52,604 nucleotides of DNA from Bacteroidales bacterium. GTDB lineage: Bacteria > Bacteroidota > Bacteroidia > Bacteroidales > P3. A program made the translations under genes and the position numbers. The notes under the pieces were generated by a model that worked only from the letters and a program-made list of their open reading frames with translations, had not been told where the DNA came from and did no database searches. Of the stretch, positions 3,892 through 24,680 are shown one piece after another. Every line of letters begins with the position of its first letter. Positions within the stretch are counted from its first letter, which is position 1. Location of the stretch: the NCBI GenBank assembly GCA_017451385.1, contig JAFSPS010000036.1, forward strand, positions 1 to 52,604, in the 5' to 3' direction.

Positions 3892-3922
3892 TTTGCTTGT
3901 AAATTAAATTAGTGTACTTTTG
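3892..3922 (+). promoter_or_regulatory. Consensus Bacteroidota promoter (TTTG-N19-TACTTTTG)
   Basis: TTTG at 3892-3895 and TACTTTTG at 3915-3922 are separated by exactly 19 nt, a full match to the Bacteroidota housekeeping promoter. It drives the small lipoprotein gene, leaving a 5' UTR of about 50 nt. Confidence 0.8.
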
Positions 3923-17973: not shown

Positions 17974-18409
17974 GTTGTGATTTGCTTGAAAATTAGTATC
18001 TTTGTATGATTGATAAACAACTTATAATCGTGCGTTAGCGGCCGTTATGAGTTGTGATTTGCTTGAAAATTAGTACCTTTGTATGATTGATAAACAACCC
18101 TACAACGTGCAGCAGCGCCTTTCACTCTGTTGTGATTTGCTTGAAAATTAGTACCTTTGTATGATTGATAAACAACAAACATTTTGTCCGTCTCTACCTG
18201 GTATAGTTGTGATTTGCTTGAAAATTAGTACCTTTGTATGATTGATAAACAACATCACCAGAAGCATTATTATTAAGAACCTTGTTGTGATTTGCTTGAA
18301 AATTAGTACCTTTGTATGATTGATAAACAACAGAGGAGCAGAAATAGCGCGTACACGAGTTGTTGTGATTTGCTTGAAAATTAGTACCTTTGTATGATTG
18401 ATAAACAAC
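17974..18409 (+). CRISPR. Type II-C CRISPR array: six 48-bp repeats, five spacers
   Basis: Repeats at 17974-18021, 18051-18098, 18129-18176, 18206-18253, 18284-18331 and 18362-18409. Spacers are 29, 30, 29, 30 and 30 nt. Repeats start GTTGTGATTTGCTTGAAAA and end with GATTGATAAACAAC, so the ends are short inverted repeats (GTTGT/ACAAC). Five are identical; the first has T for C at position 26. Positions 2-19 are fully complementary to the tracrRNA at 24581-24598, so crRNAs are read from the plus strand. Each repeat holds GTTG (1-4), 19 nt, then TA(T/C)CTTTG (24-31), a Bacteroidota promoter pointing into the next spacer. The length and the start resemble the 47-bp repeats of Bacteroides fragilis type loci. 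Confidence 0.98.
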
Positions 18410-18639
18410 TTATCTATTCTATCAATCACAAAAACAAAGAATTGCAAAGGAAAGCAGAAAGAAAAAAATCATGCAAAAAGAAAAGGGAATTCATGCCATA
18501 GGCTGAGTTTCCTTTTTCTGTTTATAGATGGTTTATCCTCAGGGCAACCGCATCAAAAATTATAATCGAGTAGTTTTTTCACGAGATTGTCTGGGGCAAT
18601 GGCGGTTTCAAGCAAAACATTGCCAAAACCTATTTGGGA
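18410..18639. other. Flank between array and cas2, with hairpins
   Basis: AT-rich, A-rich plus strand just after the last repeat (probable leader or integration-side flank). Around 18477-18520 an imperfect A/T-rich stem with GCC-ATA-GGC at its core is followed by T-rich DNA on both strands; it could end crRNA transcripts on the plus strand and cas transcripts on the minus strand. At 18597-18626 GGCAATG and CATTGCC pair around a loop that contains TTTCAAGCAAA, an 11-nt match to the tracrRNA anti-repeat. An open plus-strand frame from 18528 overlaps cas2 and is not believed to be a gene. Confidence 0.45.
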
Positions 18640-19913
<1,274 letters not shown>

Positions 19914-19916
19914 ATA

Positions 19917-22900
19917 TTAATCGCCACTAACAATATTGCCTAATCTATCGACTTTTATTGGGATACAGACCTCTTTAATCATTTCACCAGTGGTTGCACG
20001 TTCCATTTTATTTGAGGTAGTATATTCTTTTTTGTTTTCTATTGGACTGGCCACCCTATGAGATACACACATGAATTGAGATCCCGTAAAAGACACAACC
20101 TTATAAATTCTATTCCTATCCAATTTGTCTATTGATACAACTTCATTCTCAACAGGTACATACACCAAATCGTTTGGCGAAAGCACATATAATAGTTTTG
20201 CATCCGCCGGCATCAATGACAAGTCATCTTGACTTAATCTCTCAACGATATGGTCTTTCCATGATGTCAGATACTGCTTCTGAAGGTCAATCACTATGTT
20301 CAACGGTATTGTTGCATATCCACGCAGGCCTTTATCAGTACTGTAGATAGCATAAAATAGATTAGTACCCTTTGCTGCCTCAACGAATTTTGTCGCCTTC
20401 TGCCCAGATTGTCCGATACTGAATTTGTTGGCTTGCTCATAAACACGGACACGTTTTATTGGCTGATGGTCTCGACCTCCATTAAGCGAACGAATATTGG
20501 CGTTCATACGTTCAAGACCATCTGCTGAAAATGCTTCTTCAGGGTTATTGCGTTCGCTGGCAAGGTGTGCACGCAAAATCGAACGGATTCCACTGTCTGT
20601 GATACTATCTATTGCTTTTTCAGCCGCAGGAACGGTTGTACAACCAGCCATAACAGAAAGCAGCCCCTTACGTGTGGCGAAATAGCGGCTTTTAGTTTCT
20701 TTCGTATAATAATATACTTCGATTCTCCCATCTGCCGCCTCGCTCCAAATATCTTTATTTTTTGAAAGGAACTCAATAATCCGTTTATCGGTATATCTTA
20801 ATCCTTTCTTTTCTTTTATTTTATCCTTAAGTTCACGATTCACAATCCTATCAGGGTCTTTCAGGGCTTCCATTATTTGAACCTTCTTTTTCAACTGAAG
20901 GTTTACTTCACCAAAGACAGTTTCCTTATGCAGTGCCTTACGTATTGCCCAACTGTCTCCTCGCTCTTGTTTACGTCGTTTCTTAGTTCTCGGATCGTAT
21001 GCATAGTAGTTCGATGTTTTATTGATTACACGTAGGTTTTGCTTGAAGCTTACTATGATGTTTTGTAAAGTACTGTAAACATCCGCAGGGAAGGTGTCCC
21101 ACGGGAGTTTGAAGGTGGTAAACCTTTCATGGATTACACCCTTTTTTTTGTTGGTATATTTCTCCTTATTACGCAGTTTGTTTTGAAGGTCATATCTGGT
21201 ATTATGGTCTGCTGCTTCATTGTTGATAAGGTTCACATGATCGCGTGTGCAGCAGGCGATGACAATGGCATCCATGGCATGGTGACGATGGTCAAGTCGT
21301 TTCTTGTTAAAGCCTTTCCTTATTTCTAATGGAACAGCAGGAATAAAGTGGCCTTCCTTTGTCTTTGCTGTAAAAGAGGAAGAATGTGTTATGTCGTTCA
21401 TTCTTTCAAAACGGGGTAGTAGGATGCGATTCCACACATCGTTTACTCCCCAATCCTGTTTCAACCGATCGGTAATTTTGCCGTTACAAGCGATAACATT
21501 TTTCGATGTTGTAGCGTTTTCATTATTGCCATTTTCATCCTCGGTACGAACGATGTTCGACAATAGGTGCATCATCAATCGGCTTATATAGCGTGAATCG
21601 TTCAACTGTCTGTTGATGAAATTTTCAGGGATCTCATCCAACATCAGATAATTGTATTTGGTATTTGAGCAAGTTTTGTTACTGTTGCCACCAAACAATT
21701 CACGTACAATCTTTTCATATTCGATAACGGACAAAATCTCCGCTTCACCACTAGAACTTAATTTAACTTTTTCTCCATGATGATTCACAATAAATTGATG
21801 TCCAAGCTGACGGTCTTTCAGACTATTTACTTCGGTCTCACAAATAACCTTATTGGCAAACGAATCATCAAACCAAATACTTCGAGGAATAATGTGTTCT
21901 ATCTGATAGGCATCGGTGAAAAGTAGAGATAGCGGGATAGGTTTGCCTGTGTATGGGGATATGTATTTCTGATCCAGCCACAGCTTATAACGTATCACCT
22001 CGGCATGAGATGGCACTTTTGTTGCTGTGAAATGATCTCTTATAGACTCTATTTCTTTGCGTTCTATGTCGTCCTTGAAGATAATGTTTTCAGGTTGGTT
22101 GAAAACGCCATCTTCGTATATTTTAAGTATCTCATATTGTGACGGCGAATATGGACGGACATTTGCAATCTGCATGTCTGGATTTTTCATTTCACAGAGT
22201 AGCAAACGTATGCGCTGGTTGTCAGCCTCAGCTTTAGTAGCACTTGCCGTCATGCGTTCGCGTTCTTCTTTCGTCTTCTTCAATTCGCGTCCCAGTTCGA
22301 TGTGTATTTCGTCTATTCTTCCTGTTTGATTCCAGATGTCGCGCACTACACGGAGTGCTTCGGTTACTATTTGTTCTACGATAGGATTATTTAGTGAATG
22401 CTGACGGAATTGACTCAAATACCGGTCTATGTCTTCTGGCCTTGTCCACTTCTGAGCATCTATGGCCTCGGAATGACGGTCATAGACAAGATAGCAGGCC
22501 TCCCATGTATTTAGGCCTTTGCATAGACTAATATCATTAATAAAGGCAAATTTCTCACGTACAGTTGATGATATTGTGTCATCCGCTTCACCACTGATAA
22601 TATGATCAATTCTACTTCGTGTTTCCCTATCTATTGCGTCCGCACTCCAGTACTGCCCCCTACGCATCAATGGAAGGAGGCGTTTTATAGCTTTTTCTGA
22701 GTATGCTCCATAGTCTTTCTCGCCACATACCGTCAGTTTCCGAAAAGCCTGCGAAAAAGCCTGCTTTTGGACATCCGTCCATGCATCCTGTTTGCCTGCG
22801 AATTTTTTCAATGCTTTTTCATATTGAATAGTGTCGTCAATGGAATAGAGAATGTGCCAAAGGGTGAATTCGTTGTTGTCTTTGTATAAGAAACTCAAAT

Positions 22901-24425
22901 CTATGCCAGCCTTGCGTAGTCCACCTAATAGCACAGCACGAGTTTCTCCCATAGGATACTCTTTGTCCGGCACATAATTCCATCGGTATTCAGACTGTTT
23001 CTTCTTGTCTATTCGGAAGTGTTTGAGCAATTGTTCTTGTTTGATACTCTTCAACTTAGATAGAGAATCATACAAATCAGTATAAGCATCATCCGAAGGC
23101 AATAAATGCTTGGTAACATCTTCGTTCAGATGAAGAATACGAAGATTTGAAATAAACTGCCAGATACGAAATTCCTGAAATGACGGATGAGATTTTGCAA
23201 TACACTTTATCGGCCATTCTCCATGACTTTCAAAAGGGCAGTTTGCTATTAGCGTTTTTTTGCTTTTAAGTGGTCTTTGATAGAAGAGAATGTCATCGAC
23301 AAATAATTCTACAAATGTGCGCTTAGCTATTATATTCCTATGCGTCTCATTGTTTGGATAAAGTGTTTCAACACATTTGTGATACAAATCACAATCAAGC
23401 AATTCGGGAATATACTCACTTTGTTTCTTTAGAATCAGTTTCAATTCGTCGTAGTAATAATGCCTGTCTATGGTTCTGACAGTTTCGCCAATAATCTTCT
23501 GATTTGGGTTTTGTAGCAGTAAGTTGAAAATATACTCTCCAACAGTAAATCCCGAATGATCTATCTGATGTTGTGTCTTTGTTTTGTAGAGTCCCCAATC
23601 GGATTCCTTCGGAGAACTTAATGATGGTTGTTGGTTAACACGTTTCCCCTCTTTATCCAATTTGAATGAAGCAATAAAGGCTCTTGTTTTCCCTTCCCAA
23701 TCGGGTTTGCTTTGGAAAACACGGCGATAAACCCAACCATTATCAAGTGTAATGTTATACCATGACCATCCCTTTTTGTCTTTTTCTTCTGTTTCATCTA
23801 TTTTGATTATCTGCAATTCGTGATATTCTTTCTCAATACCTTTATCAGGCGAGTTATTTTCGTCCTCATCCATTTTCCCACGTAGCTGGTTGTACCCTCT
23901 TTTTTGATTGAATTGCATAAGAACCCACGCCAACTCTTCTTTTTTGATTGGATCCGTTAGAGCTTTCTTCCTCAAATAGTATATGGTCCAATCATACGGA
24001 ATATTCTGCGAAATACCTGCTTTGCGAAATGCAGCAACCATTTCGTCGAAAGAAGACTTGAAAAGGAACTCTGGTTTACCATCTTTTCCTTCACGCCATG
24101 CGATTTTGGGTTCTATATCTGATTGGAGTTTGCCATATCTATCTAAATAAACAGAATAGTGTTCAGGCAAGAAGTCCATTGAATTTAGAACTCGAAGTAG
24201 TCGTTCTCTACGGAGAAGGAAACGCTGTCTGAGACGTCTTGCCCCGCGTGCCTGAGTGCGTTCGGCAGTGAATGATATAGAATTCCCTTTTTCAAAGTCC
24301 CCCATCTGTCCTGCATCCATTGGGATTATGCGTGAACCAGCAGAATCTATATGTTTTGATTCGCTGTCAATCACAGCCCATCCGATGCTATTTGTCCCAA
24401 GGTCGAGTCCGAGTATTTTTTTCAT
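19917..24425 (-). CDS. cas9: CRISPR-associated endonuclease Cas9, type II-C, 1502 residues
   Basis: RNA-guided DNA nuclease. RuvC-I contains D8 (MKKILGLDLGTNSIGWAVID); the Arg-rich bridge helix is GARRLRQRFLLRRERLLRVL; RuvC-II contains E710 (IDEIHIELGRELKK); HNH contains H844 (YQIEHIIPRSIWFDDSFANK) with the following N and K; RuvC-III contains H1049 and D1052 (RLDHRHHAMDAIVIACC). All catalytic residues are intact. It is longer than the common 1000-1150-residue II-C enzymes but similar to other large Bacteroidota Cas9s. ATG 24425 is preferred to the open frame from 24446 because that upstream start lies in the -7 element. It heads cas9-cas1-cas2; the locus is more AT-rich than its neighbours, suggesting acquisition by transfer. 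PAM cannot be inferred. Confidence 0.98.
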   Translation of the reverse strand: MKKILGLDLGTNSIGWAVIDSESKHIDSAGSRIIPMDAGQMGDFEKGNSISFTAERTQARGARRLRQRFLLRRERLLRVLNSMDFLPEHYSVYLDRYGKLQSDIEPKIAWREGKDGKPEFLFKSSFDEMVAAFRKAGISQNIPYDWTIYYLRKKALTDPIKKEELAWVLMQFNQKRGYNQLRGKMDEDENNSPDKGIEKEYHELQIIKIDETEEKDKKGWSWYNITLDNGWVYRRVFQSKPDWEGKTRAFIASFKLDKEGKRVNQQPSLSSPKESDWGLYKTKTQHQIDHSGFTVGEYIFNLLLQNPNQKIIGETVRTIDRHYYYDELKLILKKQSEYIPELLDCDLYHKCVETLYPNNETHRNIIAKRTFVELFVDDILFYQRPLKSKKTLIANCPFESHGEWPIKCIAKSHPSFQEFRIWQFISNLRILHLNEDVTKHLLPSDDAYTDLYDSLSKLKSIKQEQLLKHFRIDKKKQSEYRWNYVPDKEYPMGETRAVLLGGLRKAGIDLSFLYKDNNEFTLWHILYSIDDTIQYEKALKKFAGKQDAWTDVQKQAFSQAFRKLTVCGEKDYGAYSEKAIKRLLPLMRRGQYWSADAIDRETRSRIDHIISGEADDTISSTVREKFAFINDISLCKGLNTWEACYLVYDRHSEAIDAQKWTRPEDIDRYLSQFRQHSLNNPIVEQIVTEALRVVRDIWNQTGRIDEIHIELGRELKKTKEERERMTASATKAEADNQRIRLLLCEMKNPDMQIANVRPYSPSQYEILKIYEDGVFNQPENIIFKDDIERKEIESIRDHFTATKVPSHAEVIRYKLWLDQKYISPYTGKPIPLSLLFTDAYQIEHIIPRSIWFDDSFANKVICETEVNSLKDRQLGHQFIVNHHGEKVKLSSSGEAEILSVIEYEKIVRELFGGNSNKTCSNTKYNYLMLDEIPENFINRQLNDSRYISRLMMHLLSNIVRTEDENGNNENATTSKNVIACNGKITDRLKQDWGVNDVWNRILLPRFERMNDITHSSSFTAKTKEGHFIPAVPLEIRKGFNKKRLDHRHHAMDAIVIACCTRDHVNLINNEAADHNTRYDLQNKLRNKEKYTNKKKGVIHERFTTFKLPWDTFPADVYSTLQNIIVSFKQNLRVINKTSNYYAYDPRTKKRRKQERGDSWAIRKALHKETVFGEVNLQLKKKVQIMEALKDPDRIVNRELKDKIKEKKGLRYTDKRIIEFLSKNKDIWSEAADGRIEVYYYTKETKSRYFATRKGLLSVMAGCTTVPAAEKAIDSITDSGIRSILRAHLASERNNPEEAFSADGLERMNANIRSLNGGRDHQPIKRVRVYEQANKFSIGQSGQKATKFVEAAKGTNLFYAIYSTDKGLRGYATIPLNIVIDLQKQYLTSWKDHIVERLSQDDLSLMPADAKLLYVLSPNDLVYVPVENEVVSIDKLDRNRIYKVVSFTGSQFMCVSHRVASPIENKKEYTTSNKMERATTGEMIKEVCIPIKVDRLGNIVSGD

Positions 24426-24443
24426 AGTAAGTTGTTTTTGTGG

Positions 24444-24451
24444 CAAATATA
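24444..24451 (-). promoter_or_regulatory. -7 element (TATATTTG) of the cas9 operon
   Basis: Minus-strand TATATTTG, 19 bp upstream of ATG 24425, matches TAnnTTTG; no good -33 is seen. Transcription would begin around 24438, giving a very short leader. Confidence 0.55.
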
Positions 24452-24543: not shown

Positions 24544-24574
24544 TTTGCAAATATAATAAAATATCGTATTTTTG
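24544..24574 (+). promoter_or_regulatory. Consensus promoter of the tracrRNA (TTTG-N19-TATTTTTG)
   Basis: TTTG 24544-24547 and TATTTTTG 24567-24574, separated by exactly 19 nt. The transcript should start around 24580, right at the anti-repeat. It is divergent from the cas9 promoter. Confidence 0.85.
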
Positions 24575-24579
24575 CAAAA

Positions 24580-24680
24580 CTTTTCAAGCAAATCACAATA
24601 AGGATTATTCCGTTGTGAAAACATTAGGTTCATCGTCCTTTACGGTGAAGAATCCATCGTTCTTAACGGTGGATTTTTTT
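24580..24680 (+). ncRNA. tracrRNA of the type II-C system
   Basis: TTTTCAAGCAAATCACAA (24581-24598) is the exact complement of repeat positions 2-19, with a further G-U pair possible. Downstream, AATAA-GGA-TTATT can form a small nexus-like hairpin. Two related hairpins follow: 24629-24636 with 24642-24649 (8 bp, one G-U), and 24651-24660 with 24666-24675 (10 bp, one G-U), the second followed by a T-run to 24680, so it is a Rho-independent terminator. Total length is about 100 nt. It guides crRNA maturation and Cas9 loading. Orientation is opposite to cas9 and toward lepA. Complementarity and signals are seen directly; the role follows from the type II family. Confidence 0.93.

Follow-up and report, generated by a model that had tools for sequence, protein, structure and literature searches.

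The stretch of DNA analysed here (52,604 nt, from a Bacteroidales bacterium; hereafter the window) carries a type II-C CRISPR-Cas locus, in which contiguous cas2 (18640..18972; Pfam PF09827), cas1 (18978..19913; PF01867) and cas9 (19917..24446; PF18541, PF13395, and PF16593) genes occupy positions 18640-24446, all on the minus strand, with genes for MazG and LepA flanking the block. The Cas9 protein would count 1509 aa from the listed TTG, its exact start being unsure. Searches of the genome, which is 94% complete, revealed neither Cas4 (the control being positive in 8 of 14) nor Csn2, the latter result carrying little weight alone, as its control was equally silent. The presence of cas9, cas1, and cas2 without csn2 or cas4, along with an array convergent with the cas genes and a tracrRNA with an anti-repeat, is what is expected of subtype II-C. 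The array (17974-18409), in which six repeats of 48 nt alternate with five spacers of 29-30 nt, faces the cas genes, since its crRNA strand is the plus strand and the cas genes are on the minus strand. The repeats are found at 17974..18021 (repeat 1, leader-distal), 18051..18098, 18129..18176, 18206..18253, 18284..18331, and 18362..18409 (repeat 6, leader-proximal), and the sequence between the array and cas2 (18410..18639) is the presumed leader, judging from its position and by analogy with Riemerella, in which spacer insertion takes place on the cas2 side of the array (PMC6008519, in the part available to us).

A first-pass annotation of this sequence proposed that every repeat contains a Bacteroidota promoter pointing into the next spacer, and the motif on which this proposal was built is indeed present in six of the six repeats: TA(C/T)CTTTG at repeat positions 24-31, exactly 19 nt after the GTTG at positions 1-4 (17974-17977 in repeat 1). 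The box reads TATCTTTG in repeat 1 (17997-18004) and TACCTTTG in repeats 2 to 6 (18074-18081, 18152-18159, 18229-18236, 18307-18314, and 18385-18392, all on the plus strand), the third, free letter being T in the first repeat and C in the other five, and each copy matches TAnnTTTG, the -7 consensus of the Bacteroidota housekeeping sigma factor, sigma-ABfr (PMC7366714, in the part available to us). The two promoters offered for comparison are likewise exact matches to TTTG-N19-TAnnTTTG on the plus strand, one in front of a small lipoprotein gene (3892-3922) and one in front of the tracrRNA (24544-24574, with TTTG at 24544-24547 and TATTTTTG at 24567-24574). The window contains 48 occurrences of TAnnTTTG against 25.1 expected, six of them being the repeats, and the box in the repeats exceeds chance. 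Genome-wide, TTTG-N19/20-TAnnTTTG is found 139 times, versus 15 for a reversed control pattern, and this promoter type is in general use in this genome. No sigma-70 signal recurred in a scan of the repeats (two matches vs. 2.5 expected), and the repeat ends in GATAAACAAC, with no sigma-70 -10 box of the Campylobacter/Neisseria type (gnTAnaaT) at its 3' end. A direct reading also confirmed that repeat positions 2-19 pair with the anti-repeat of the tracrRNA (24581-24598, plus strand), the pairing ending at position 19.

A separate observation concerns the tracrRNA promoter itself, which overlaps head to head with a minus-strand TTTG-N19-TAnnTTTG (24548-24578) directed toward cas9. The opposite promoters share one 35 bp stretch (24544-24578), so that binding at one would exclude the other. 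This head-to-head offset is seen in one of 70 tracrRNA promoters, the window's own, and a reverse box of any kind in six of the 70.

The occurrence of the box beyond the window was assessed in Cas9 loci found through PF18541, in 63 of 395 genomes of the phylum, 45 of 120 genomes of the genus (32 of 99 in a previous draw), and 148 of 393 genomes of the order, 47 further hits being taken from among the best-scoring ones of the last search. These 155 regions (63 + 45 + 47) and the window make up 156 loci (the window and L066-L220). No array was present in 24 of them, and the consensus of L161 was truncated, leaving 131 oriented arrays, one per locus; second arrays with an identical repeat were merged, two tandem repeats not of the CRISPR type (L117, L206) were dropped, and two arrays (L130, L150) were oriented by hand. 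Repeats were considered distinct when less than 85% identical, and chance levels were derived from 1000 dinucleotide shuffles. Two size classes emerged, a long class of 44-49 nt (102 arrays, 63 distinct repeats) and a 36-nt class (29 arrays, 14 distinct). A named second set comprised 80 loci, 28 of them without an array; one of the loci of the window's genus (L148) and L267 are identical in sequence. The Cas1 tree (126 rows) is a quick one, with SH-aLRT support only (marked * below). As a control, 30 loci around other Cas2 genes of the order were examined, and they provided 23 arrays, one repeat occurring twice, with repeats of 30-38 nt, shorter than those tested, while a scan for II-C loci of other phyla returned Bacteroidota records and one Firmicutes record without an array.

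Of the 63 distinct repeats of the long class, 30 have an exact TAnnTTTG on the crRNA strand, versus a shuffle mean of 2.06 (largest 9). No copy lies on the opposite strand of this part of the repeat, and only one of 63 is found there when the whole repeat is considered. This signal comes mainly from the window's order, where, among loci chosen only from the best-scoring Cas9 hits and with a single clade (clade X, see below) set apart, 26 of 33 distinct repeats and 37 of 44 arrays carry the exact box (1.16 on average in shuffles, 5 at most; the opposite strand of this part has none). In other orders and classes, exact boxes are few and hardly above chance (4 of 19 distinct long repeats vs. a mean of 0.73, largest 4), and the shorter TAnnTTT is found in 9 of 19 (4.31, largest 10). 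In the named set, the exact box occurs in 28 of 51 long-repeat arrays, and in 23 of 41 among repeats absent from the first set; Bacteroides faecis MAJ27 and Phocaeicola coprophilus, both culturable gut commensals, are among the box-bearing members. None of the 23 control arrays beside other Cas2 genes, presumably of type I or III judging from their repeats, has it on either strand. In the exact-box repeats, the box lies at positions 23-28 in 29 of 30 distinct cases and at position 31 in one, and the information per column drops from 2.00 to 0.20 bits immediately after its final G, the six fixed columns being full by selection. The free letters vary but are mostly TC (21 of 30), and shared ancestry thus explains part of the sameness.

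Among the 36-nt repeats, 2 of 14 distinct sequences carry the exact box (0.29 expected, largest 4). In one distant family of this class (L113, L114, L115), TAATTTTG, TAGTTTTG, and TAGATTTG stand at position 21, the repeats differing at two free box letters and one further base, and at none of the fixed letters. As a side observation, the last six bases of 20 of the 29 36-nt repeats are GATATT, TAGATT, or TACATT (e.g., L095-L107), near the site of the Campylobacter 3'-end -10 box, yet their hosts are Bacteroidota.

The box is not universal even in the window's own genus. On the Cas1 tree, the window groups with two other box-bearing loci (L144 and L145; 100*), while clade X, comprising 34 rows (98*), contains no exact box, with counts of 0 of 11 distinct repeats and 0 of 35 arrays, one of the latter (L147) having no Cas1 found and being assigned by its repeat alone. 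Of the 41 arrays of the genus, six are box-bearing (the window, L141, L144, L145, L148, and L168), 34 belong to clade X (one by repeat alone), and one more (L143) also lacks the box; in many clade X repeats GAACATTG or a similar sequence takes its place. Such an absence, here in 35 of 35 clade X arrays, had been named beforehand as an outcome counting against the proposal, and the claim of conservation is therefore limited to a lineage: it stands for the crRNA strand in the window's order, and it does not extend to clade X.

Presumably, clade X makes its crRNAs some other way, and this bears on the possibility that an external promoter at the leader-distal end drives the whole array in the window as well, with the repeat boxes weak or silent. 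Considering complete 250-nt upstream stretches only, TAnnTTTG on the crRNA strand precedes 20 of 28 clade X arrays versus 7 of 28 box-bearing arrays (p = 0.0011), making external promoters plausible in this genus. With loci having an upstream tracrRNA removed, the counts, made by hand, are 9 of 13 versus 7 of 28 (p = 0.014). The link between box loss and an upstream promoter is a hint only, as the counts are not independent and largely reflect one evolutionary event, and a comparison of independent pairs on the Cas1 tree (six pairs, median p of 1) had no power. For the window, however, an external promoter appears improbable, as no plus-strand TAnnTTTG is found in the 250 nt upstream of its array, the crRNA strand upstream of box-bearing arrays is not enriched over the reverse strand (7 vs. 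8 of 28, the reverse-strand count for clade X being 5 of 28), nor is that of the remaining long-repeat arrays (4 vs. 3 of 23), and such a promoter would be most distant from the newest spacers if insertion takes place next to cas2. Fifteen clade X loci (L129, L131, L132, L133, L134, L136, L137, L139, L142, L149, L154, L156, L157, L165, and L170; 14 identified by script and L129 by eye) have a tracrRNA gene in front of the array and on its strand, in most cases no more than about 600 nt away (1374 nt in L139), an arrangement seen in none of the 41 long-repeat loci with the exact box. In the roughly ten loci inspected by eye, a GC hairpin with a T-run is present between the tracrRNA and the array, and it is doubtful that the tracrRNA promoter drives these arrays, since this terminator-like hairpin stands between.

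The notion that the repeat box resembles the tracrRNA promoters of its own loci was upheld on the larger sample. An anti-repeat was present in 96 loci, and in 70 of these the tracrRNA is closely preceded by an exact TAnnTTTG, with 22 more matching at five of the six letters. The two groups share a T at -3 (49 of 70 tracrRNA promoters, 25 of 30 repeats) and a G at -1 (42 of 70 and 22 of 30), and they differ in the base after the box, which is C in 52 of 70 tracrRNA promoters versus 7 of 30 repeats. With a matrix built from the 70 tracrRNA promoters, the window's own included, the window's repeats rank 13th-16th of 105,142 positions, and 33-37% of the tracrRNA promoters score below them. A host-type promoter sequence on the crRNA strand, scoring within the range of tracrRNA promoters, is found in each of the six repeats. 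The 10th percentile of tracrRNA promoters is reached by 66% of the 41 exact-box repeats and by none on the other strand, by 4% of the other long repeats, and by no clade X repeat.

It may be argued that the box is held by some other need, such as recognition of the repeat by Cas1-Cas2 or the end of the repeat:tracrRNA duplex, and is only promoter-like, the array being transcribed from outside. The TA may in many loci be part of the duplex with the tracrRNA, which may extend to the TTTG in 14 of 65 loci, by a mismatch-tolerant method that overestimates, so that pairing could conserve part of the box in such loci; in addition, CTTTG without the TA recurs in repeats outside the order (e.g., TTTCTTTG), and the predominance of TC at the free letters would also agree with this possibility. 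Against it, the box slides between positions 23 and 28 relative to the fixed start of the repeat, which is hardly compatible with a fixed integrase ruler or duplex; the TnG context is common to tracrRNA promoters; clade X lacks the box though its Cas1 proteins lie near those of box-bearing loci on the tree; and in the window the pairing stops at position 19. We consider this explanation unlikely, and a promoter within the repeat the better account of the box.

The role of the GTTG is a different matter. The first-pass annotation envisaged a fixed 19-nt spacing, and this did not hold up across loci, the distance varying from 18 to 23 nt, with one case of 26. GTTG opens nearly all repeats compared (a few have GCTG), with or without the box, so that this half of the motif, being the usual start of these repeats, is expected anyway. 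The -33 element proper is TTTG, found 19-20 nt before the -7 box in tracrRNA promoters, and GTTG at this distance is weakly enriched in the genome, with 41 matches to GTTG-N19/20-TAnnTTTG (35 without the array) versus 9 for the control, CTTG giving 24 versus 10. Thus, the GTTG of the repeat is at best a weak -33, and the signal is carried by the -7 box. Whether it contributes at all is nearly an even call, leaning slightly toward some contribution. That the -7 box and TnG work alone, GTTG merely being the usual repeat start near -33 by chance, would be compatible with the repeat promoter as such, and would agree with the presence of GTTG in box-less repeats, with the variable spacing, with an enrichment (35 vs. 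9) far below that of TTTG (139 vs. 15), and with several truncated first repeats that lose the GTTG and keep the box (e.g., L066, L145, L204). On the other hand, 32 of 41 exact-box repeats have a gap of 18 (16) or 19 nt (16), near the TTG-to-TA distance of 19 (20 cases) or 20 nt (18 cases) in 38 of the 70 tracrRNA promoters.

Decay of the leader-distal repeat was also considered as a source of information. This repeat is often replaced over its 5' part, with the 3' part intact (e.g., L066, L145, L204, L205, L216), in arrays with and without the box. The expectation that the pairing half would be lost and the box kept in box-bearing arrays only was rejected, as loss of the 5' part and retention of the 3' part are seen in every group, with 5'/3' substitution rates of 0.294/0.109 for exact-box repeats, 0.243/0.025 for other long repeats, 0.250/0.079 for clade X, and 0.120/0.019 for 36-nt repeats, some of these rates being inflated by one-base register errors in L141, L142, L144, and L160.

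Taken together, these data suggest, with a probability that we put at roughly 0.78, that each repeat is a promoter of the housekeeping sigma factor and that every spacer is thereby transcribed as a pre-crRNA of its own. This Bacteroidota sigma factor would recognize the -7 box at positions 24-31 and the TnG before it, with GTTG as at best a weak -33 contact, and RNA polymerase would start about 5-7 nt past the box, within the last 11 nt or so of the repeat. Judging from the position of the box, the predicted start region is repeat positions 36-38 (18009..18011, plus strand, in repeat 1, with an equal offset in each of the others). The transcript would then run through the spacer (29-30 nt) and enter the following repeat, the first 19 nt of which would pair with the tracrRNA, leading to processing on Cas9, so that each unit would begin with the last 11 nt or so of one repeat, continue through the spacer, and end at the processing site of the following repeat. 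Should spacers be inserted at the cas2 end, as happens in Riemerella, the resident repeat would transcribe each new one at once, whatever the length of the array. The promoter of repeat 6 would read into the leader, with no spacer to transcribe, and toward cas2 as antisense.

A broader, and rather doubtful, scenario is that Bacteroidota II-C repeats represent two promoter designs, one of 36 nt with a box-like end, and another of 46-49 nt, the added length being roughly a helical turn, with a sigma-ABfr promoter in its interior, each acquisition also duplicating a host-type promoter, and that clade X lost the repeat promoter in favor of external ones, the tracrRNA gene in some cases having been relocated ahead of the array, in a natural switch from many promoters to one.

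Should the repeat promoters operate as predicted, the repeat of a large Cas9 class in gut bacteria would be under a third constraint, sigma binding, in addition to integration and tracrRNA pairing, and the supply of crRNAs need not depend on the position in the array. Reports of no promoter for such arrays may then stem from searching for another motif, and the box would give array orientation a sequence signal in Bacteroidales. The occurrence of box-bearing and box-less arrays in one genus presents a ready comparison for the benefit of a repeat promoter.

The repeats of Campylobacter and Neisseria are 36 nt long. The type II-C systems of these genera have sigma-70 promoters in their repeats (PMC4607530, PMC12080349, in the parts available to us) and are like the locus described here in the gene order cas9-cas1-cas2, in the array convergent with the cas genes, and in a promoter per repeat directed toward the next spacer; they are unlike it in that the element is a sigma-70 -10 box, located mostly at the 3' end of the repeat. 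Within the Bacteroidota, a repeat promoter has already been proposed for the II-C system of Flavobacterium columnare, on the basis of a TTG that precedes each spacer by 33 bp (PMC8092290), with transcription toward the leader supported by eight reads; this proposal, in the available part of the report, concerns TTG alone in 36-nt repeats, with no -7 box named. The II-C system of Flavobacterium psychrophilum (Fp2Cas9) has 46-bp repeats, for each of which a promoter element is reported, judged, in the available part of that report (PMC10309648), by the TTG motif only, following F. columnare, while TAnnTTTG is named for the promoter of the Cas9 gene. CRISPR1 of Riemerella anatipestifer is similar in its 47-bp repeats and 30-bp spacers (PMC5006608, PMC6008519), yet the available part of one account reports no potential promoters in the repeats and names a neural-network tool for the leaders (PMC5006608). 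The accessible portion of a survey of Bacteroides fragilis notes that the leader studied there lacks an obvious promoter, and identifies no definite leader for II-C (PMC5704556). No report of a TAnnTTTG -7 box in a CRISPR repeat was found in the literature searched, subscription journals and preprints being outside its coverage. The novelty implied by the original proposal thus holds in part: promoters in II-C repeats are already known, those proposed for the two Flavobacterium species resting on TTG alone, and the -7 box TAnnTTTG in repeats is the new part, within the literature searched. What distinguishes this type of locus from those of Campylobacter and Neisseria is the combination of mostly 46-49-nt repeats, a Bacteroidota -7 box in their interior, and a predicted start that leaves about 10 nt of the repeat downstream.
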